64,000 bases of DNA from Achromobacter pestifer (lineage in GTDB: Bacteria; Pseudomonadota; Gammaproteobacteria; Burkholderiales; Burkholderiaceae_B): contig NZ_CP053985.1 in assembly GCF_013267355.1 (NCBI RefSeq), positions 2,790,001 through 2,854,000 on the forward strand, read 5' to 3'. Made by a program: the position numbers and the translations under genes. This document shows positions 8,199-16,959 of this stretch, piece by piece (position 1 is the first letter of the stretch; every line of letters starts with the position of its first letter). Below the pieces are notes generated by a model, which worked only from the letters and a program-made list of their open reading frames with translations, was not told where the DNA came from and searched no databases.

Positions 8199-9161
8199 TT
8201 AGCGGATCAGCGTACCCGCCAGCGCGGCGGCGACCAGCAGGGCGCCCAGCCAGAGATTGGCGCGGAACAGCATGAAGTTGCGGTCAGGGCGCTGGATGTC
8301 GAAGACCTTCAGCTGCCACGCCAGGTGTGCCGCCACGGCCACCATGCCGACCTGGTAGGCCCACGACAGCCCGATGGCGTAGCCGCCCCAGGCCCACAGC
8401 ACGATGGTGGCCAGATAGAAGCCGCCGATCCAGAGTTTGCCCTGGTCGCCAAAGCGCATGGCAGTGGAATGCAGGCCCAGGCTGCGGTCGTCGCGCACAT
8501 CCACGTAGGCGTAGATGCTGTCATAGCCGACCTGCCACAGCACCGCGCCCGCCCACATCGCGATGGCGGCCAGCGGCACGTGGTTCTGCGTGTCCGACCA
8601 CGCCATCAGCATGCCCCAGTTGAAGCAGATGCCCAGCACCACTTGCGGCCAGTAGGTGACGCGCTTGCACAGCGGATAGACGAAGACGAAGGGCAGCACG
8701 GCCAGCGCCAGCCAGCGGCTCATTTCATTCAGGAAGAACAGCAGCGACCCGCAGACCAGCAACTGCCCGAGCAGGAACCAGACCGCGTTCTTCATCGTCA
8801 GCTGGCCGCTGGTCAGGGGGCGGAAGCGCGTGCGCTCGACGTGCTTGTCGAAGTTGCGGTCGCACATGTCGTTGACGGTGCAGCCGATGCCGCGCATCAG
8901 CAGCGCGCCCAGCGAGAACACGATCAGCCGCCCGAGGTCCGGCAGGCCGCCCGCGGCCTGGACCAGCGCGGCGATGGCCGGCAGCAGGGTCAGCCAGGTG
9001 CCGATGGGGCGGTCCAGGCGGCACAGGCGGGCGTAGGGCCGCCAGGACTTGGGCAGCCAGCGTTCGACCCAGTCGGTGAAGACGATGTCGCTGAGGTCGA
9101 CGGGAGATGGTTGGGGGGCGCTCACTGTCACGGCGAAACGGAATGGGAAAACCAAGAGCAT
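8199..9161 (-). CDS. ubiA: 4-hydroxybenzoate octaprenyltransferase
   Basis: An integral membrane prenyltransferase that attaches the octaprenyl chain to 4-hydroxybenzoate in ubiquinone synthesis. The two aspartate-rich motifs that bind Mg-diphosphate are present: NDMCDRNFD and the YAYVDVRDD region, both in cytoplasmic loops. There are eight or nine hydrophobic helices, and the conserved RLDRPIGTWLTLLP is near the N-terminus. The start is uncertain: the ATG used here lies inside the T-run of the terminator of the upstream aminotransferase gene, and GTG codons at 9131 or 9125 are plausible alternatives. None has a clear Shine-Dalgarno. Confidence 0.93.
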   Translation of the reverse strand: MLLVFPFRFAVTVSAPQPSPVDLSDIVFTDWVERWLPKSWRPYARLCRLDRPIGTWLTLLPAIAALVQAAGGLPDLGRLIVFSLGALLMRGIGCTVNDMCDRNFDKHVERTRFRPLTSGQLTMKNAVWFLLGQLLVCGSLLFFLNEMSRWLALAVLPFVFVYPLCKRVTYWPQVVLGICFNWGMLMAWSDTQNHVPLAAIAMWAGAVLWQVGYDSIYAYVDVRDDRSLGLHSTAMRFGDQGKLWIGGFYLATIVLWAWGGYAIGLSWAYQVGMVAVAAHLAWQLKVFDIQRPDRNFMLFRANLWLGALLVAAALAGTLIR

Positions 9162-9233: not shown

Positions 9234-10430
9234 TTATTCGGCCTTTAGCAGCTTGCCGAGGATGGCGATGCCGCGGCGGATCTTGTCTTCCGGCACGGTG
9301 GCGAAGCTCAGGCGCAGCGTGTTGGTCTTGCCGGCGCCGCAATAGAACGGCGCGCCGGGCACGAACGCCACGTTTTGCGCGATGGCCTTTTCCAGCAGCT
9401 TGGTGCTGTCGATGTGCTCGGGCAGCGTGAGCCAGATGAACATGCCGCCTTCCGGCTTGGTCCAGCTGACGGTGTCAGGGAATTCCTGCTTGATGGCTTC
9501 CAGCATGCAGCTGCCCTGGGCGCGGTAGATTTCACGCACATTGGGCAAATGTTCTTCCAGGAAGCCGTCCTTGACGATCTCATGCACGGCCATCTGCGTC
9601 AGCGTGGGCGTGTGCAGGTCGGTGGCTTGCTTGGCTTGCACCAGCTTGTTGATGAGCGGGCGCGCGGCGGCGATGTAGCCCAGGCGCAGGCCGGGGGCCA
9701 GCACCTTGGAGAACGTGCCCAGGCGCACGACGTTGGCGCCGTACTCGGCGGCCAGCGCGATCAGGCCGGGCTGCGGCTCGCCTGCGTAGCGCAGTTCGCC
9801 GTAGGGATCGTCCTCGACGATGGTCAGGTTCAGCTCCGCGGCGCGCTTGACCAGCGCGATGCGGCGCTCCAGGTTGAGCGTGCGGCCGGTGGGGTTCTGG
9901 AAGTTGGGCAGGGCGTACAGGAAGCGGGCGCCGTCGGCCAGTTCAGGCGTGATGGCTTCCGGGATCAGGCCGCCTTCGTCGGTGGGCACCGGCACGAAGT
10001 TGGGCTGGTACAGGCTGAACGACTGCAGCGCGCCCAGGTAGCTGGGGTCTTCGACCAGCACCTTGCTGTCCTTGTCGATCAGCACCTTGCCCAACAGGTC
10101 CAGCGCTTGCTGCGAACCCGACACGATCAGGATCTGGTCGGCGGCGACGCTGGCGCCAGCCTTGTTCAGATCGTCCGCGACCCATTGGCGCAGGGGCGCA
10201 AAGCCTTCCGTGGGGCCGTACTGCAGGGCGGCGCGGCCGTTGGTGGACAGTACCTTGTCGAATGCCGCGCGAACTACCTCTACCGGGAAGCCGCCGGGCG
10301 CCGGCAGGCCGCCGGCGAACGAGATGACTTCGGGGCGCTCGGTTACCTTGAGGATCTCGCGGATGGCGGAGCTGGTGAGTTGCTGGGCGCGTTCCGAAAA
10401 GGAAAACGCAGGTTCGAGAGGCTTGTCCAT
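9234..10430 (-). CDS. PLP-dependent aminotransferase (fold type I, LysN/2-aminoadipate-like)
   Basis: A 398-residue class I/II aminotransferase related to LysN and other MocR-derived transaminases. Visible are the N-terminal FAGGLPAPGGFPVE, the cofactor-contact segment VSGSQQALDLLGKVL, NFQNPTGRTL, the PLP aspartate in VEDDPYGELRY, the Schiff-base lysine in LGTFSKVLAPGLRLGY, and the C-terminal arginine in TLRLSFATV. It probably moves amino groups between aromatic, branched or 2-aminoadipate-type donors and 2-oxoglutarate; the substrate is not fixed by sequence. I start at MDKPLEP because the further upstream frame is non-conserved in character. Divergent from the next gene. Confidence 0.9.
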   Translation of the reverse strand: MDKPLEPAFSFSERAQQLTSSAIREILKVTERPEVISFAGGLPAPGGFPVEVVRAAFDKVLSTNGRAALQYGPTEGFAPLRQWVADDLNKAGASVAADQILIVSGSQQALDLLGKVLIDKDSKVLVEDPSYLGALQSFSLYQPNFVPVPTDEGGLIPEAITPELADGARFLYALPNFQNPTGRTLNLERRIALVKRAAELNLTIVEDDPYGELRYAGEPQPGLIALAAEYGANVVRLGTFSKVLAPGLRLGYIAAARPLINKLVQAKQATDLHTPTLTQMAVHEIVKDGFLEEHLPNVREIYRAQGSCMLEAIKQEFPDTVSWTKPEGGMFIWLTLPEHIDSTKLLEKAIAQNVAFVPGAPFYCGAGKTNTLRLSFATVPEDKIRRGIAILGKLLKAE

Positions 10431-10608
10431 GGAGTGCTTCTTGATCAAGAAGGGTAGGAAAATACGGGCGGCTAATCCCTTGGGTTGCCCGGCGGAAAAA
10501 ACATTCGGCAAAAAACTATTGTCCCACACGGCAGCGGCCCGGCCCCCTTAATGGCGCCAAGCCCTAAAATCACCTGCATCGATAACCGCCTGTACAGTTA
10601 CATTTCCC

Positions 10609-11094
10609 ATGTTCGAAGCCGCTCCCATCGTCGCCGATTCCAAGGCCGCCCTGTACGCCGGGCTGGTTGCCCAGGCCCGCGCCCTGCTCGAGGGCGAGCA
10701 TGACCGCATCGCCAATGCCGCCAACCTGAGCGCGCTGGCTTATCAGGCCCTGCCCGACCTGAACTGGGCGGGCTTCTATTTCTACGACGGCACGGAACTG
10801 GTGCTGGGCCCCTTCCAGGGCAAGCCGGCCTGCGTGCGTATCCCGCTGAACCGCGGCGTGTGCGGCGCGGCCGCCAGCCAGCGCCAGACCCAGTTGGTGC
10901 CCGACGTGCACGCCTTTCCCGGACACATCGCCTGCGACGCGGCCTCACGTTCCGAGGTCGTGGTGCCGCTGGTGCACCAGGGCCAACTGATCGGCGTATG
11001 GGACGTGGACAGCCCGCTGCCGGACCGCTTCGACGAAGACGACCGCCAGGGCATGGAAGCCTTGTGCGCGGTGTTCCTGGACAGTCTGGGCTGA
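10609..11094 (+). CDS. msrC: Free methionine-(R)-sulfoxide reductase (GAF domain, fRMsr)
   Basis: A 161-residue single GAF-domain enzyme that reduces free methionine-R-sulfoxide, using thioredoxin. The three cysteines of the family are all present: Cys75 (GKPACVRIP), Cys85 (LNRGVCGAAA) and Cys109 (HIACDAAS), the same spacing as Cys84/94/118 of the E. coli protein. NWAGFYFYDG and VVVPLVHQGQLIGVWDVDS are standard for the family. Cytoplasmic oxidative-stress repair; it appears to be a single-gene unit. Confidence 0.92.
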   Translation: MFEAAPIVADSKAALYAGLVAQARALLEGEHDRIANAANLSALAYQALPDLNWAGFYFYDGTELVLGPFQGKPACVRIPLNRGVCGAAASQRQTQLVPDVHAFPGHIACDAASRSEVVVPLVHQGQLIGVWDVDSPLPDRFDEDDRQGMEALCAVFLDSLG

Positions 11095-11172: not shown

Positions 11173-11271
11173 ATGATTCATCAGGCCATTCAATCCGCTT
11201 TCCCGTTCCGCGCCCTGGGCGTGGTGCTGGCTTGCGTCGGCCTGAAATCCAAAAAACAGCCGCTCATCTGA
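11173..11271 (+). CDS. Possible 32-residue leader peptide
   Basis: A short open frame (MIHQAIQSAFPFRALGVVLA, then a basic tail CVGLKSKKQPLI) begins about 35 bases after the predicted transcription start. Its stop codon falls inside the left arm of one of two competing hairpins, which is the geometry expected if translation chooses between the structures. There is no good Shine-Dalgarno and I do not recognise the peptide, so this is tentative. Confidence 0.3.
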   Translation: MIHQAIQSAFPFRALGVVLACVGLKSKKQPLI

Positions 11272-11310
11272 CCGGAGCATGCTGTTCCGTCAGATGGGCG
11301 ACGGAACAGC
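11261..11310 (+). promoter_or_regulatory. Mutually exclusive hairpins in the DapA-like leader
   Basis: CGCTCATCTGAC (11261-11272) can pair with GTCAGATGGGCG (11289-11300), 12 pairs with one G-U. GCTGTTCCGTC (11281-11291) can pair with GACGGAACAGC (11300-11310), 11 pairs. The second left arm overlaps the first right arm, so only one can form. No T-run follows, so control of translation or RNA stability is likelier than classical termination. Confidence 0.5.
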
Positions 11311-11412
11311 GGCCTCCTGGCGGCGCTTTGCGCCGTCCGCGCATCCCCTAGTATCCCGAGCACTTCTGTACGGTCCTCAACCACGGTCCGCTTACACCGA
11401 AGGAGTGTTCTC

Positions 11413-12309
11413 ATGCAATCTCATCACCAATCTCCGATCCAGGGCGTCTGGGTGCCTCTGGTCACGCCGTTTGCCGGCGGCGCCGTGGACGGTGGGGCCT
11501 TGCGCCGTCTGGTGCGCCATTACGCCGCAGCGGGCGTGGACGGGCTGGTCGTGTGCGGCAGCACCGGCGAGGCCGCGTCGCTGGACGACGCCGAGCAGCT
11601 GGCGGTGCTGGACGCCGTGCTGACCGAGGCGGGCAGGCTGCCCGTCATCATGGGCCTGGCGGGCAACCACCACGGACACGTGATGCAGCGCCTGGCCGCC
11701 TTCGGCACGCGCCCGCTGGCCGGCATCCTGGCGCCCGCCCCGTATTACGTGCGCCCCGGCCAGGAAGGCGCCGCCACGTATTTCCGCTGCCTGGCCGATG
11801 CCTCGCGCTTTCCCTTGGTGCTCTACGACATTCCCTATCGCACCGGCACGACGCTGGATACAGCGACCCTGCTGGCGCTGGCCGCGCACCCGAACATCGC
11901 GGCCATCAAGGATTGCGGCGGCTCGCTGGAGAAGACGATTGCCCTGATCGCCGACGGCAACATGAACGTGCTGGCGGGCGAGGACCTGCAGGCGCTGTCC
12001 GTGATGAGTCTGGGGGGCGCGGGCATGATCGCGGCGGCGGCGCACATCCGCCCCGATCTGTTCGTGGCCATGCACCAGGCGGTGAAGGCGCAGCAGCTGG
12101 ACCTGGCCAGGAAGCTGTTCCATGCGCTGGTCCCCATCATCCAGCTGACGTTTGCCGAGCCCAATCCTGGTCCCTTGAAGGCGCAGCTGGGACGTCAGGG
12201 CCTGCTGAGCGAGGAACTGCGCATGCCCATGCCGTCCGCCAGCACGGCTCTGGCCGCGCGCATGGACGCCGCCGTGGCGGGGCTGAACCGGCAATATCCC
12301 TGCCAGTAG
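11413..12309 (+). CDS. Dihydrodipicolinate synthase (DapA)/N-acetylneuraminate lyase family protein
   Basis: A 298-residue TIM-barrel class I aldolase. The Schiff-base lysine is Lys166 (IAAIKDCGG), the catalytic tyrosine Tyr138 (LVLYDIPYRTG), and the pyruvate-carboxylate site is CGSTGEAASL (residues 48-57). It could be a true 4-hydroxy-tetrahydrodipicolinate synthase for lysine and cell wall or one of the many family lyases acting on other keto acids; genus members often carry several. The strong promoter and structured leader upstream are unusual. No lysine genes are nearby, which slightly favours a paralogue. Confidence 0.85.
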   Translation: MQSHHQSPIQGVWVPLVTPFAGGAVDGGALRRLVRHYAAAGVDGLVVCGSTGEAASLDDAEQLAVLDAVLTEAGRLPVIMGLAGNHHGHVMQRLAAFGTRPLAGILAPAPYYVRPGQEGAATYFRCLADASRFPLVLYDIPYRTGTTLDTATLLALAAHPNIAAIKDCGGSLEKTIALIADGNMNVLAGEDLQALSVMSLGGAGMIAAAAHIRPDLFVAMHQAVKAQQLDLARKLFHALVPIIQLTFAEPNPGPLKAQLGRQGLLSEELRMPMPSASTALAARMDAAVAGLNRQYPCQ

Positions 12310-12432: not shown

Positions 12433-13209
12433 ATGGCCCAAGCTTTTGTAGCCTTGTCCGCCTGGCAAGTCATGCTGGCGGGCCTGCTCTTCTTCGCCGG
12501 CATCTACCTGGTCTTCGGCGCGGCCACCTGGCTGCTGACGCAGCACATCCTGCCCGCGCTGGGCATTGGCCGCCCGCTGGATCCGCGTCCGCTGGCGCCG
12601 GGCCAGCTGCGGCGCGAGTTCGCGCAGTCCGGGCTGTCCATCCTGCTGTTCGGCACGGGCATGATTTTTCCGTGGGGCCTGTTGCAACTGGGCTGGGCGC
12701 ACCTGGACCCGGATGCCAGCTGGCAAAAGATCACGCTCGAGATCCTGGTGCTGGTGGCCTGGAACGATGTGCACTTCTGGATCAACCACCGCCTGTTGCA
12801 CACCAAGCTGCTGCGCCGCTTCCACCTGCCGCATCACCGTTCGGTCGTGACCACGCCATTCTCGACCTACAGCTTCCATCCGATCGAGGCGCTGATGCTG
12901 GGCAATGTGATCATGCTGCCCATGGTGCTGCACGACTTCAGCTTCTGGTCGCTGGCGTCGGTGCCGCTGTTCAGCCTGTTCTTCAATTGCATCGGGCACG
13001 CCAACTACGATTTCTTTCCCAACGTGTCCTACGCGCACTGGTTCGCCGCCAGCCGCCGCCATCATCTGCACCACGCCTGCTACAACGGCAATTACGGTTT
13101 CCAGTTCACCTTCATGGACCGCCTGTTCCGCACCCGCCTCAAGGCCGAGGCGGCGCAGTCCCAGCTGAATGCATTCCGGCAGCGAGAATCGCTTGGCGGG
13201 CGCGCTTAA
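12433..13209 (+). CDS. Sterol desaturase/fatty acid hydroxylase superfamily protein
   Basis: A 258-residue integral membrane di-iron enzyme. The histidine clusters are complete: H114-x4-H119, H131-x2-H134-H135, and H210-H211-x-H213-H214, with extra His149 and His189. Four or more hydrophobic helices surround them. The superfamily hydroxylates or desaturates fatty acyl, sterol or carotenoid C-H bonds with O2. It is the first gene of a packed operon; its 3' end overlaps the next gene by 41 bases, which implies translational coupling. The substrate is probably the product or precursor handled by the downstream ketosynthase fusion. Confidence 0.85.
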   Translation: MAQAFVALSAWQVMLAGLLFFAGIYLVFGAATWLLTQHILPALGIGRPLDPRPLAPGQLRREFAQSGLSILLFGTGMIFPWGLLQLGWAHLDPDASWQKITLEILVLVAWNDVHFWINHRLLHTKLLRRFHLPHHRSVVTTPFSTYSFHPIEALMLGNVIMLPMVLHDFSFWSLASVPLFSLFFNCIGHANYDFFPNVSYAHWFAASRRHHLHHACYNGNYGFQFTFMDRLFRTRLKAEAAQSQLNAFRQRESLGGRA

Positions 13210-14101
13210 GCGACAGCGCCGGCTGCCGTCGCTGCGCAACCGGCGCGACTGGCAAAGCCTGGCCTACCTGGCCGCGCTGCCCGCGCTGGCGGGCTGGCAG
13301 TGGGTGCACGGGTTCTGGTGGCCGCTGTACGGCCTGATGCTGTTCCTGACCCTGGGCGTGGGCGTCATCCACCACAACCACACGCACATCCGCATGTGGC
13401 GGGGGCGCTGGACCAATCGCGCCACCGACTTCTGGATCACGCTGCTGCAAGGCCATCCGACCTTCGTGTTCTATCCGGCGCACGTGGCCAACCATCACCG
13501 CTACAAGCATGGCGCGCGCGACGTGGCGCGCACCTATCGGTTCGGTGGCGACACCAACCACCTATGGGGCTATCTGCTCCATCCCTTGCAGGCGGGCTGG
13601 GTGCTGTACCCCTTGTTCTTCGCCTGGCTGGGCCGTCTGCGCCGGCACTGGCCGGGCGCCTGGCGCTATTGCATGGCGCAGTACGGCGTGTGGCTGGGCC
13701 TGTGGGGCGGGCTGCTGGCCGTGAATCCCATGAAGGCGCTGGTGTTCGTCATCGTGCCGCAACTGCACGGCCTGCACTGGCTGCTGGCCACCAACTACCT
13801 GCAGCACGCCCATGCCGACGGCGGGCCCCGGTCCGTCGCGGGCCTGAACTATGCGCGCAATTTCGAGGGCCTGGTCAATCCGCTGCTCTTCAACATCGGC
13901 CTGCACACGGCGCACCACGAGCATCCGCGGGCGCACTGGTCGGAACTGGTGCGCCTGCACCGTGAGCAATACCGCAGCCGCGTGAATCCGGTCTTGAACG
14001 AGCCCGGCTTGACGCCCTATATGTTCCGCGTGTTCGTGCTGGGCGCCGTCATGCCGCGCTTTCGCAGCCGCTCATGCATGGCGCCCGAGCATATCCGCTA
14101 G
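13169..14101 (+). CDS. Membrane fatty acid desaturase
   Basis: A 310-residue integral membrane desaturase with the three histidine boxes: H68-H69-N-H71-T-H73, H105-x3-H109-H110, and H246-x2-H249-H250 (continuing EHPRAHW). Hydrophobic helices lie at about residues 30-66, 132-155 and 165-207. It should introduce a double bond in an acyl chain with electrons from a ferredoxin or cytochrome. The start overlaps the preceding hydroxylase gene, and the next gene begins 33 bases after its stop, so all belong to one transcript. Regiospecificity cannot be read from sequence. Confidence 0.85.
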   Translation: MHSGSENRLAGALKRQRRLPSLRNRRDWQSLAYLAALPALAGWQWVHGFWWPLYGLMLFLTLGVGVIHHNHTHIRMWRGRWTNRATDFWITLLQGHPTFVFYPAHVANHHRYKHGARDVARTYRFGGDTNHLWGYLLHPLQAGWVLYPLFFAWLGRLRRHWPGAWRYCMAQYGVWLGLWGGLLAVNPMKALVFVIVPQLHGLHWLLATNYLQHAHADGGPRSVAGLNYARNFEGLVNPLLFNIGLHTAHHEHPRAHWSELVRLHREQYRSRVNPVLNEPGLTPYMFRVFVLGAVMPRFRSRSCMAPEHIR

Positions 14102-14134
14102 CGCCGCACCCCATACATCCACCAGAGGCCACTC

Positions 14135-16063
14135 ATGCCCATCGCGTTTCATCGTGTCTACCTGGAAAGCGCCGGCTATTTCATGCCGGGCGAACCCGTG
14201 TCCAACGATGCCATGGACAGCTACATCGCGCCGCTGAACCGCATGTCCAGCCGCATCAAGAGCCGCATCCTGGCGGAGAACGGCATCAAGCAGCGCTACT
14301 ACGCGATCGACCCGGAAGGCGCCACGGTGTTCTCCAACGCGCAGTTGGCGGCCAATGCCATCCGCGATTGCCTGCGGCGCAACGACAGCGACCTGTCCGC
14401 CGTGTCGCTGCTGGCCAGCGGCTCGTCGGGCGGGGACGCGCTGATGCCGGGCTTCTCCAACATGATCCAGGGCGAGCTGGCCGCGCATCCGATGGAAACC
14501 CTGTCGGTGCACGGCATCTGCGCGGCCGGCGTATCGGCCATCCAGACGGCCGCGCAGGGCGTGGAACTGGGCGGACATGCCAGCGCCCTGGCCGTGGCCA
14601 GCGAGCTGCCGTCGCGGCTCTTCAAGCGTTCGCGTTTCGCGGCGCGCGGCTATGACGCCGACTTCGACGCGCATTTCCTGCGCTGGATGCTGTCGGACGG
14701 CGCGGGGGCGGTGCTGCTGGGCAATACCGGACGGCCCCTGCCGGGCGCCTCGCAAGGCGTGCGCCTGCGCCTGAAGTGGGTGCACCAGCGCTCGTTCTCG
14801 GGCGATTATCCGGTCTGCATGCAGCTCGGCCTGTCGGCCGACCGCTCCAAGGGACATCTGGACTATCCCTCGTGGAACGAGGCCGAGGCCGACGGTGCGC
14901 TGTCCTTGCGCCAGGATATCCGCCTGCTGCCGCACCTGTTCGACATCGGCATCCATGAGTACGCCAAGCTGGTGCGCGACGGCTGGCTGGACCCGGATCA
15001 GGTGGACCACTTCCTGTGCCACTACTCGTCGGAGAAGTTTATCCCGGTGGTGGAAGACCTGATGGAGAAGGCTGGCCTGGTGATCCCGCGCGAACGCTGG
15101 TTCAGCAACCTGGCGTGGCGCGGCAACACCGGCGCGGCGTCCATCCTGATCATGCTGGCGGAGTTCCTGGAAACGCGCGAAGTGAAGCCGGGCGAGCAGA
15201 TCTTCTGCTACATCCCGGAATCGGGCCGCTTCATGGCTGCCTACATGTTGCTGGAAGCCGAGGCCGTCCACGCCCCGCAAATCGCCGTGGCCGCGCCTGC
15301 CGCCTCCGCGGCAGCGCCGCGCGAGGACGCCAACAGCGATGACGCCGCGGCGATCGCGCCGCCGCACGATCCCGACATGGCACCCCAGGGCCTGGGCCAG
15401 CTGCTGACCGAACTGGCGGCGATCTGGCACGACTACCGCTCGCGCGTGTGGCGCACGCCCGTGGTGCGGCGCCTGCGCAATCGCCAATTCCAGACCGCCG
15501 ATTATCTGAACTGGATGGAGAACTGGATTCCGCAGGTGCGCGAGGGCAGCAAGTGGATGCGCGAAGGCGCGGCCTCGCTGACGGAGCAATACGCACCGCT
15601 CGCGGCGCTGATCGACACGCATGCGGGCGAAGAGCAGAACGACTTCCAGATCCTGTTCCAGGACTATCGCACCGCGGGCGGCGCGGTCGCCGACATCGAC
15701 GCCCTGCGCCGCAATCCCGGCGGCGAAGCGCTCAACGCCTATCTGCATGGCCTGGCCGCCACGCGCGACCCCATCGGCCTGCTGGGCGCCATCTACATCA
15801 TCGAAGGCACGGGCCAGCGCATCGTGCCGGCGCTGCTGCCGCTGCTCAAGGCCAGCCTGACGCTGCCGCCGGACGCCTTCCGCTTCCTGGAATACCACGG
15901 CCATAACGACGAGCATCACCTGGCGCGCTGGTTGTCGGCGGTGGAGCTGGCGCTGGACTGCGATGAGGACGGCCGCGCCGAGCAGCGCATCGTCGACACG
16001 GCGCGCCGCACGGCCGCGCTGTACCTGATGCAGTTCCACCACGTGATGGAAGGCGACGCGTGA
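14135..16063 (+). CDS. Fusion of KAS III-like ketosynthase and haem-oxygenase-like di-iron domain
   Basis: A 642-residue two-domain protein. Residues 1-375 are a thiolase-fold ketosynthase of KAS III type: catalytic Cys129 in HGICAAGVSA, His296 in FLCHYSSEKF, and Asn331 in WRGNTGAAS. A low-complexity Ala/Pro linker (about 380-415) leads to residues 420-642, an all-helical domain of the haem-oxygenase-like (TenA/PqqC/CADD/UndA) type. It shows Glu557 (IYIIEGTGQ) and the helix signature His588-x3-Asp592-x2-His595, as in di-iron HDO enzymes; an acidic cluster near 499-503 could complete the metal site. The ketosynthase half recalls StlD/DarB-like enzymes, but I cannot confirm that. It sits between a desaturase and an unknown gene, with a one-base overlap to the latter. 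Confidence 0.8.
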   Translation: MPIAFHRVYLESAGYFMPGEPVSNDAMDSYIAPLNRMSSRIKSRILAENGIKQRYYAIDPEGATVFSNAQLAANAIRDCLRRNDSDLSAVSLLASGSSGGDALMPGFSNMIQGELAAHPMETLSVHGICAAGVSAIQTAAQGVELGGHASALAVASELPSRLFKRSRFAARGYDADFDAHFLRWMLSDGAGAVLLGNTGRPLPGASQGVRLRLKWVHQRSFSGDYPVCMQLGLSADRSKGHLDYPSWNEAEADGALSLRQDIRLLPHLFDIGIHEYAKLVRDGWLDPDQVDHFLCHYSSEKFIPVVEDLMEKAGLVIPRERWFSNLAWRGNTGAASILIMLAEFLETREVKPGEQIFCYIPESGRFMAAYMLLEAEAVHAPQIAVAAPAASAAAPREDANSDDAAAIAPPHDPDMAPQGLGQLLTELAAIWHDYRSRVWRTPVVRRLRNRQFQTADYLNWMENWIPQVREGSKWMREGAASLTEQYAPLAALIDTHAGEEQNDFQILFQDYRTAGGAVADIDALRRNPGGEALNAYLHGLAATRDPIGLLGAIYIIEGTGQRIVPALLPLLKASLTLPPDAFRFLEYHGHNDEHHLARWLSAVELALDCDEDGRAEQRIVDTARRTAALYLMQFHHVMEGDA

Positions 16064-16959
16064 TGAGCAAAGAGCCCGAATTCCTTGCCAAGCCACACGA
16101 TCCCGCCGATCCCAGTCCCTGGCTGGCGCTGTACCTGGACCGCAGCACGCCCTTGCCCGACAAGGTGAAGAAGGCCTGGCTGACGGATTCCAGCTGCGCC
16201 TCGCGCCAGTACCTGCTGCCCTTTCTGCGGCCGCTGGCGCGCGCCTTCATCATCCTGATCCAGGTCATCAAGACCTTCCTGCCGCGCCGCTGGTCGCATT
16301 CGAAGCTGTTGCACCGCATCCTGGCCTGGGGCCTGAAGCGCTTCGTGTCGCCCGAGGCCAACTGGCTGATCCTGCGCCACTTCCACCTGGGCGCGCAGAT
16401 CCTGTCCTTCATCGCCGCTAATTCGCCGGTGCGCATTGCGACCACGCCGCTGGAGCCGCGCAACATCGATGATCTGAAGGACGAACTCTTCGTTAAGCAC
16501 GACCTGAACCTGTTCAACTTCGTCATCCGTTTGAACCAGGCGTTGCGTGATGCCGGCGTGGAGATGCATGCGCCGGAACGGGTCGATTTCTCGATGATCC
16601 GCGATCCGGACCTGCTGCTCGAGGACATGCCGCAGGGCAAGCTGAATTTCCTGGACCTGCAAAGCGCCATCGAGCTGTTCACGCCGCTGTACCAGCTGAT
16701 GCTGACCGACAACGACTTCTGGCGCGCGGCCAATTCGCTGCAGCTGGACGAGACCATCGGCATCTATGCGGCCAAGCTGCTGGGCGCGCCGCAGCACCTG
16801 ATCCTGGTCAACAACAACCATCCGCTGGTGCCGATGTCGACCCTGCGCGCGGGCTACCGGCTGGTGCTGCATGGACTGTCCACCGAGATGCTGCACAGCC
16901 TGCTGATGGAAATGAAAGAGGCGCAGCAAGGCGGCGAGGCGCCCGCGCCGATCGCCTGA
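16063..16959 (+). CDS. Unrecognised protein of the lipid operon
   Basis: A 298-residue protein I do not recognise. It starts at an ATG that overlaps the preceding stop codon (TGATG); an in-frame GTG one codon earlier is possible. It has a short hydrophobic stretch at about residues 49-73 (LLPFLRPLARAFIILIQVIK) and is otherwise soluble-looking and helical, with conserved-looking acidic and histidine residues (LRHFHLGAQIL, NLFNFVIRLNQALRDAG, LILVNNNHPLVPMSTLRAGY). Tight coupling to the ketosynthase fusion implies a shared pathway, perhaps as an accessory or membrane partner. No catalytic motif is evident. Confidence 0.7.
   Translation: MSKEPEFLAKPHDPADPSPWLALYLDRSTPLPDKVKKAWLTDSSCASRQYLLPFLRPLARAFIILIQVIKTFLPRRWSHSKLLHRILAWGLKRFVSPEANWLILRHFHLGAQILSFIAANSPVRIATTPLEPRNIDDLKDELFVKHDLNLFNFVIRLNQALRDAGVEMHAPERVDFSMIRDPDLLLEDMPQGKLNFLDLQSAIELFTPLYQLMLTDNDFWRAANSLQLDETIGIYAAKLLGAPQHLILVNNNHPLVPMSTLRAGYRLVLHGLSTEMLHSLLMEMKEAQQGGEAPAPIA

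Follow-up and report, generated by a model that had tools for sequence, protein, structure and literature searches.

The window, i.e., a stretch of 64,000 nucleotides from Achromobacter pestifer (NCBI RefSeq assembly GCF_013267355.1, contig NZ_CP053985.1, positions 2,790,001 to 2,854,000), contains four genes, here termed A to D (Table 1), that form a real, conserved and uncharacterised biosynthetic unit. The core of the unit consists of a ketosynthase (KS) of the StlD/DarB type, a haem-oxygenase-like di-metal oxidase (HDO), which is fused to the KS in gene C, and the DUF6999 protein encoded by gene D. We class the system as a variation on the StlD/DarB theme and not as something wholly new, with HDO and DUF6999 in place of the DarA-type (assigned by position) and DarG genes of the dar clusters. 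We tentatively favour the reading that the operon makes an oxidised two-chain lipid of the cyclohexanedione or resorcinol type with the HDO in the role of DarA.

A genome scan with D yielded 92 confirmed stretches, the best 80 of which are referred to as the 80 loci. In 77 of these, A, B, KS, HDO and D follow each other in the same order on one strand, the exceptions being L043, L047 and L079, the last of which is a contig of 3.3 kb. In L043 and L047, which derive from two Variovorax genomes, A and D adjoin and B and C are not there (L043:3764-5409; L047:7219-8861). Both genomes encode a single D and one full-length C elsewhere, with B beside C and neither A nor D within 1.5 kb of it. The retention of all four genes despite an operon in two pieces argues for dependence and not for hitch-hiking. 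Moreover, the ratio of non-synonymous to synonymous substitutions (dN/dS, NG86) of the four genes is 0.05-0.29 between the window and six relatives. All four genes are also present in L080 (Gammaproteobacteria), and the best named match of D lies on a contig of A. xylosoxidans (99% identical in the best segment). Neighbours with more than 60% identity were found far less regularly, upstream as GAF (31 of 80 loci) and DapA (32 of 80) genes and downstream as RpiR and aminotransferase genes (5 of 80 each), and the flanking genes are outside the unit.

These data bear out the sequence-only reading of the window, which had taken the genes for one operon and functional unit; its own counter-case, that the genes are rarely together in other genomes, is not what the 77 ordered loci display. 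The layout given there also holds, with an overlap of 41 bases between A and B, a gap of 33 bases between B and C and an overlap of C and D of 1 base with the ATG start of D (4 bases with the GTG start). Likewise, the three proposed metal-dependent oxygen enzyme families were recovered by Pfam in A (PF04116), B (PF00487) and C (PF14518), and no acyl carrier protein (ACP), ligase or transporter is encoded within the conserved block. For D, the description as an unknown protein stands insofar as no function is assigned, whereas a family name exists, i.e., DUF6999. The overlap of 41 bases is not general, as the match to B begins past the end of the match to A in many relatives. The first ~18 residues of B are often unmatched in relatives, and its true start may lie further in.

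Next to its conservation close to the window, the distribution of the system was followed by the presence of DUF6999, which was found in 55 of 200 genomes of the family, 13 of 250 of the order, 6 of 274 of the class and 9 of 398 of the phylum. A different class of this phylum, taken to be Alphaproteobacteria, had it in 6 of 289 genomes. Its assignment to alphaproteobacteria depends on this identification of the class and on a control genome of Caulobacter vibrioides, which has matches for all three core families (their adjacency was not seen). In 24 regions around DUF6999 genes, 13 from the window's order and 11 from outside, KS, HDO and D lie next to each other on the same strand in 22. One exception, L101 (G052:C95), is a decayed copy, with a KS remnant that several stops interrupt and a fragmented D, and shows that the system can be lost. 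In the other, L099, D stands alone and the genome shows only a 27% match to about 120 KS residues. This D lies at 9913-10752 in a same-class genome rated complete, and a nearby open reading frame (ORF; 11181-11912) presumably encodes an IS3-type transposase. In the window's order, A is present in 12 and B in 11 of the 13 regions; L104 has no A and a weak B in two pieces, and L128 and L129 have no B. Outside the order, neither A nor B was found in any of the 11 regions (E 1e-3). The core is thus KS, HDO and DUF6999.

Three of the 24 regions were already among the 80 loci, and the 104 loci of the new type represent 101 distinct places, three having been fetched twice (L106=L046, L131=L026, L132=L017). 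Of the 100 loci with both KS and HDO, 92 encode them in a single open frame; L129, with an ORF of 632 residues, was counted as fused. The eight loci with separate KS and HDO genes all lie outside the window's order. In a phylogenetic tree, the ten fused KS cluster together (100/100) and a relative encoded by split genes branches beside them, which suits a single fusion event. A scan of nine neighbouring proteins in seven distant loci revealed nothing recurrent: L098 has a beta-lactamase fold and an MscS protein, L104 a diacylglycerol kinase, L125 an amine oxidase and L122 an HlyD protein, and for L107 no match was obtained. In L108, a locus of one genome from another class, an acyltransferase/AMP-binding/MFS fusion (Aas-like; L108:6197-9598) adjoins the KS-HDO-DUF6999 genes, and a TetR protein is a further neighbour in this locus. 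In L129, from the window's order, a short-chain dehydrogenase lies directly downstream of D (8294-9058) and is a possible extra reductase.

The relation to classical DarB loci was analysed by searching 398 genomes of the phylum with the StlD/DarB model (E 1e-40, at most four candidates scored per genome). This resulted in 21 matches in 20 genomes, 12 over the NF005293 cut-off and 9 under it (302-398 bits). The nine under the cut-off sit in exactly the nine DUF6999 genomes, the two draws of 398 genomes being taken as the same set because of equal size and handles, and one genome (G638) has both kinds of KS. The corresponding chance figure of 1.6e-18 presupposes independent genomes, an assumption that does not hold. 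In all 12 classical loci, considered with a flank of 1.5 kb on each side, a protein of ~310-360 residues and a small protein are encoded beside the KS. The small protein belongs to the DarG family (over the NF053536 cut-off in 6/6 scanned), and the larger one had no Pfam match in the six scanned, one of which gave a weak flavodoxin NCBIfam match under the cut-off. The larger protein is called DarA-type because of its position, by comparison with Azoarcus, where darB adjoins darA, whose product PMC3949708 describes as a DAR-aromatase. Neither DarA-type nor DarG-type genes were found among the sense proteins of the 104 new-type loci (E 1e-3). Conversely, the 12 classical loci gave no match to HDO or DUF6999 within their flanks of 1.5 kb. 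Matches of a DarA homologue in 78 of the 104 loci lay in antisense frames and were rejected as spurious. Since the DarA and DarG partners are absent and HDO and DUF6999 are in their place, the HDO is proposed to do the oxidative job of DarA, a role suggested by its position. Both kinds of loci have in common that a KS of the ring type adjoins a gene for a putative oxidative partner. A dimetal enzyme beside DarB-type genes is also known from cyanobacterial CylC, which we take not to be an HDO. According to PMC8406957, these dimetal-carboxylate halogenases cluster with DarB homologues in 8 of 95 classified clusters. Unlike the unit described here, those clusters contain DarA, and a halogenase is their dimetal enzyme.

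The nearest solved relative of the KS is StlD (5gk0, E 3.8e-65), which is also among the top Foldseek matches. As the model of full-length C has low quality over the KS (pLDDT 63, pTM 0.45), the reading of this domain is based on sequence. The best NCBIfam match of the first part of C is the StlD/DarB-type model NF005293 with 333 bits, under its cut-off of 450; the DarB model NF053539 gives 264 bits (cut-off 550). In Pfam, PF08541 matches and PF08545 stays under its cut-off. C has in common with StlD/DarB enzymes full-length KS similarity, the Cys-His-Asn triad, invariant in 18/18 rows (alignment A4) and 28/28 rows (alignment A2), and a PES motif near the C terminus of the KS (P361, E362 and S363, 18/18 rows); it differs from them in scoring under the family cut-offs, in its fused or adjacent HDO and in its DUF6999 partner. 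The column of the catalytic glutamate of OleA and PpyS holds M, I, L, V or A in 18/18 KS rows and Ile in StlD, compared with Glu in three of three OleA-type controls and Phe in four of four FabH-type controls. One of the OleA-type controls (L178) is over the cut-off of NF006720, which we take to represent OleA-type enzymes. In the tree, the KS is placed together with classical DarB and apart from both FabH and the OleA group. According to PMC4578411, OleA and PpyS require a Glu that extends into the active site next to it, and no product was formed once Glu105 of PpyS had been mutated. This Glu is missing from MxnB and CorB, for which the authors propose that the doubly activated substrate may deprotonate spontaneously. 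The absence of this base makes a ketone or alkene by an OleA route unlikely and a beta-ketoacyl nucleophile likely. Beta-ketoacyl substrates exist in ordinary fatty-acid metabolism, in keeping with a block that encodes no ACP or ligase; substrates from primary metabolism are also expected for StlD/DarB enzymes. From the products listed in the sequence-only reading, ketone and alkene thereby lose ground, and the resorcinol is favoured by the kinship of the KS.

The second domain of C matches PF14518 (E 4e-11) and was also supported by fold matches, and we regard its haem-oxygenase-like helical fold as solid. It shares with the HDO superfamily (UndA, CADD, BesC, SznF, AetD) the fold and the ligands Glu500, Glu557, His588, Asp592 and His595. 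Compared with a set of three His and three carboxylates (or three His and four carboxylates), these five are conserved and one His is changed to Asp503, which aligns with the His ligand of 3dde and of six ordinary HDOs from related genomes. The invariant His496 might stand in for the missing ligand. In contrast to other HDOs, the domain is moreover fused to a KS; the main text of the HDO review PMC13108848 contains none of the words 'ketosynthase', 'fusion' or 'fused'. A match of the fused kind was found in 25 of 25 same-genus genomes including the window's own, rows being counted by E-value and open frame. The window's own genome also encodes a second HDO with His at the ligand place (G000:C2:2341872-2342396, L150), and matches of this strength occur in 24 of the 25.

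D is assigned to DUF6999 with 441 bits (PF22523, gathering cut-off 27, E 2e-132). Its AlphaFold2 model is all-helical (pLDDT 68), and a fold search with this model gave no significant match. Asp27, Arg49, Arg106, His107, His147, Asp148, Asp199 and Asp230 are kept in 19/19 diverse rows, and these invariant residues suggest that D is more likely to act as an enzyme or to bind a ligand than to be a passive factor. In one genome, the DUF6999 gene is in two overlapping pieces (G1321:C1:2070679-2071499), perhaps by a frameshift or sequencing error. For genes A and B, no usable relative was found in the PDB; no NCBIfam model matches A, B or D, and a PHROGs search of C and D gave no match.

Table 1. 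Genes, domains and active-site positions of the unit, in coordinates of the window.
Feature	Position	Strand	Description	Match or conservation
Gene A	12433..13209	+	Membrane fatty-acid hydroxylase / sterol-desaturase family, 258 aa; His clusters visible in translation	PF04116, E 3.1e-21
Gene B	13169..14101	+	Membrane fatty-acid desaturase, 310 aa	PF00487, E 1.1e-25
Gene C	14135..16063	+	StlD/DarB-type KS fused to HDO, 642 aa	
KS Met104	14444..14446	+	Column of OleA/PpyS catalytic Glu	
KS Cys129, His296, Asn331	14519..14521, 15020-15022, 15125-15127	+	Catalytic triad	Aligned with StlD
HDO domain	15395..16051	+	Residues 421-639 of C	PF14518
HDO His496...Glu500..Asp503	15620..15643	+	HDO motif	Invariant, 18/18 (A3) and 28/28 (A2) rows
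HDO Glu557, His588, Asp592, His595	15803..15919 (Glu557 15803-15805, His595 15917-15919)	+	HDO ligands	Invariant, 18/18 and 28/28 rows
Gene D	16060 (GTG) or 16063 (ATG)..16959	+	DUF6999 protein, 299 aa	PF22523

In the pathway that we favour, the KS of C would take two thioesters from the synthesis or degradation of fatty acids, a beta-ketoacyl thioester as nucleophile and a second one that is probably an enoyl thioester. Like StlD/DarB enzymes, it would join them and close a ring, either a cyclohexane-1,3-dione or a related one. With O2 at its dimetal site, the fused HDO would oxidise the ring product or its precursor in place of a DarA-type partner. D, in place of DarG, would be needed for a further step, and its invariant Arg, His and Asp residues point to a catalytic or ligand-binding role. 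Hydroxylation and desaturation of the chains would be contributed by A and B in the window's order. The wider picture, to which we give somewhat less credence and which on balance is doubtful, would be a separate lineage of StlD/DarB-type ring-forming KS, in which the DarA aromatase was replaced by an O2-dependent, often fused HDO with a 2-His/4-carboxylate (or shifted-His) site, working with DUF6999 as a new enzyme family on a new class of oxidised two-chain lipids in Achromobacter, Bordetella, Variovorax and alphaproteobacteria.

Several observations weigh against these proposals. The KS is below both curated cut-offs, and ring formation may not be shared; as a single clade, the new KS are weakly supported (76/0), because L100 branches loosely. 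The DarA-type partner of the classical loci has no family match and owes its label to position only. An HDO with Asp for His may lack activity or differ in its metal content. Three of 13 window-order regions have no A or B or only a weak match to one of them, and D persists without KS-HDO in G074, a genome rated 100% complete (27% match, ~120 KS residues), so that D may have another use. Finally, product, substrate and enzyme activity are all predictions from the sequence.

The alternative that survives best, which we nevertheless consider unlikely, is that KS-HDO makes a linear acyl product for the membrane, such as a beta-diketone, a keto-lipid or a desaturated or hydroxylated acyl thioester, and that no ring is formed. 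It would be in line with A and B belonging to chain-modifying membrane families, with the position of the KS outside the StlD/DarB cut-offs and with the acyltransferase/AMP-binding/MFS protein beside D in L108, outside the window's class; the PES motif and triad common to the KS and StlD speak against it, and such an acyltransferase neighbour occurs in one of 24 regions (neighbours having been scanned in seven loci). Formation of an alpha-pyrone or another oxygen heterocycle as by MxnB/CorB, with the HDO oxidising the product, appears improbable: the Glu base is absent as reported for these enzymes, but they lie in the FabH clade (both according to PMC4578411), and the KS groups with DarB, in a tree that holds no pyrone synthases. 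There is little to recommend a role of the HDO in protection from oxidative stress or desiccation like that of Acinetobacter DtpC, with the lipid genes as a membrane-protection set. One HDO is linked to desiccation tolerance in PMC13232832, and a fused gene in all 25 same-genus genomes resembles a standing trait more than a variable metabolite cluster; however, the constant, often fused partner is a KS, and DUF6999 is found in only 9/398 phylum genomes. Equally hard to credit is an OleA-like head-to-head condensation that yields long-chain ketones or alkenes and in which the HDO would act as a decarboxylase like UndA, given that all 18 KS lack the Glu present in the three controls and fall outside the OleA group.

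In the open-licence literature searched, no mention of DUF6999 or PF22523 was found, and among the matches listed there for HDO, ketosynthase, desaturase and organism terms no description of the four-gene set was recognised, in agreement with the earlier statement that no named pathway has this composition. The proposed pathway would provide the first functional setting for DUF6999 and a gene-partner signature usable to mine genomes for it. Furthermore, the fusion of a condensing enzyme with an O2-activating HDO would be an addition to the known systems, and the invariant exchange of His to Asp in the metal site bears on how far the ligand sets of HDOs vary. Caulobacter vibrioides, with its matches to the three core families, is a tractable species and may be usable for such work. 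For Achromobacter, the presence of the gene in every same-genus genome examined suggests that its product is likely a standing trait.
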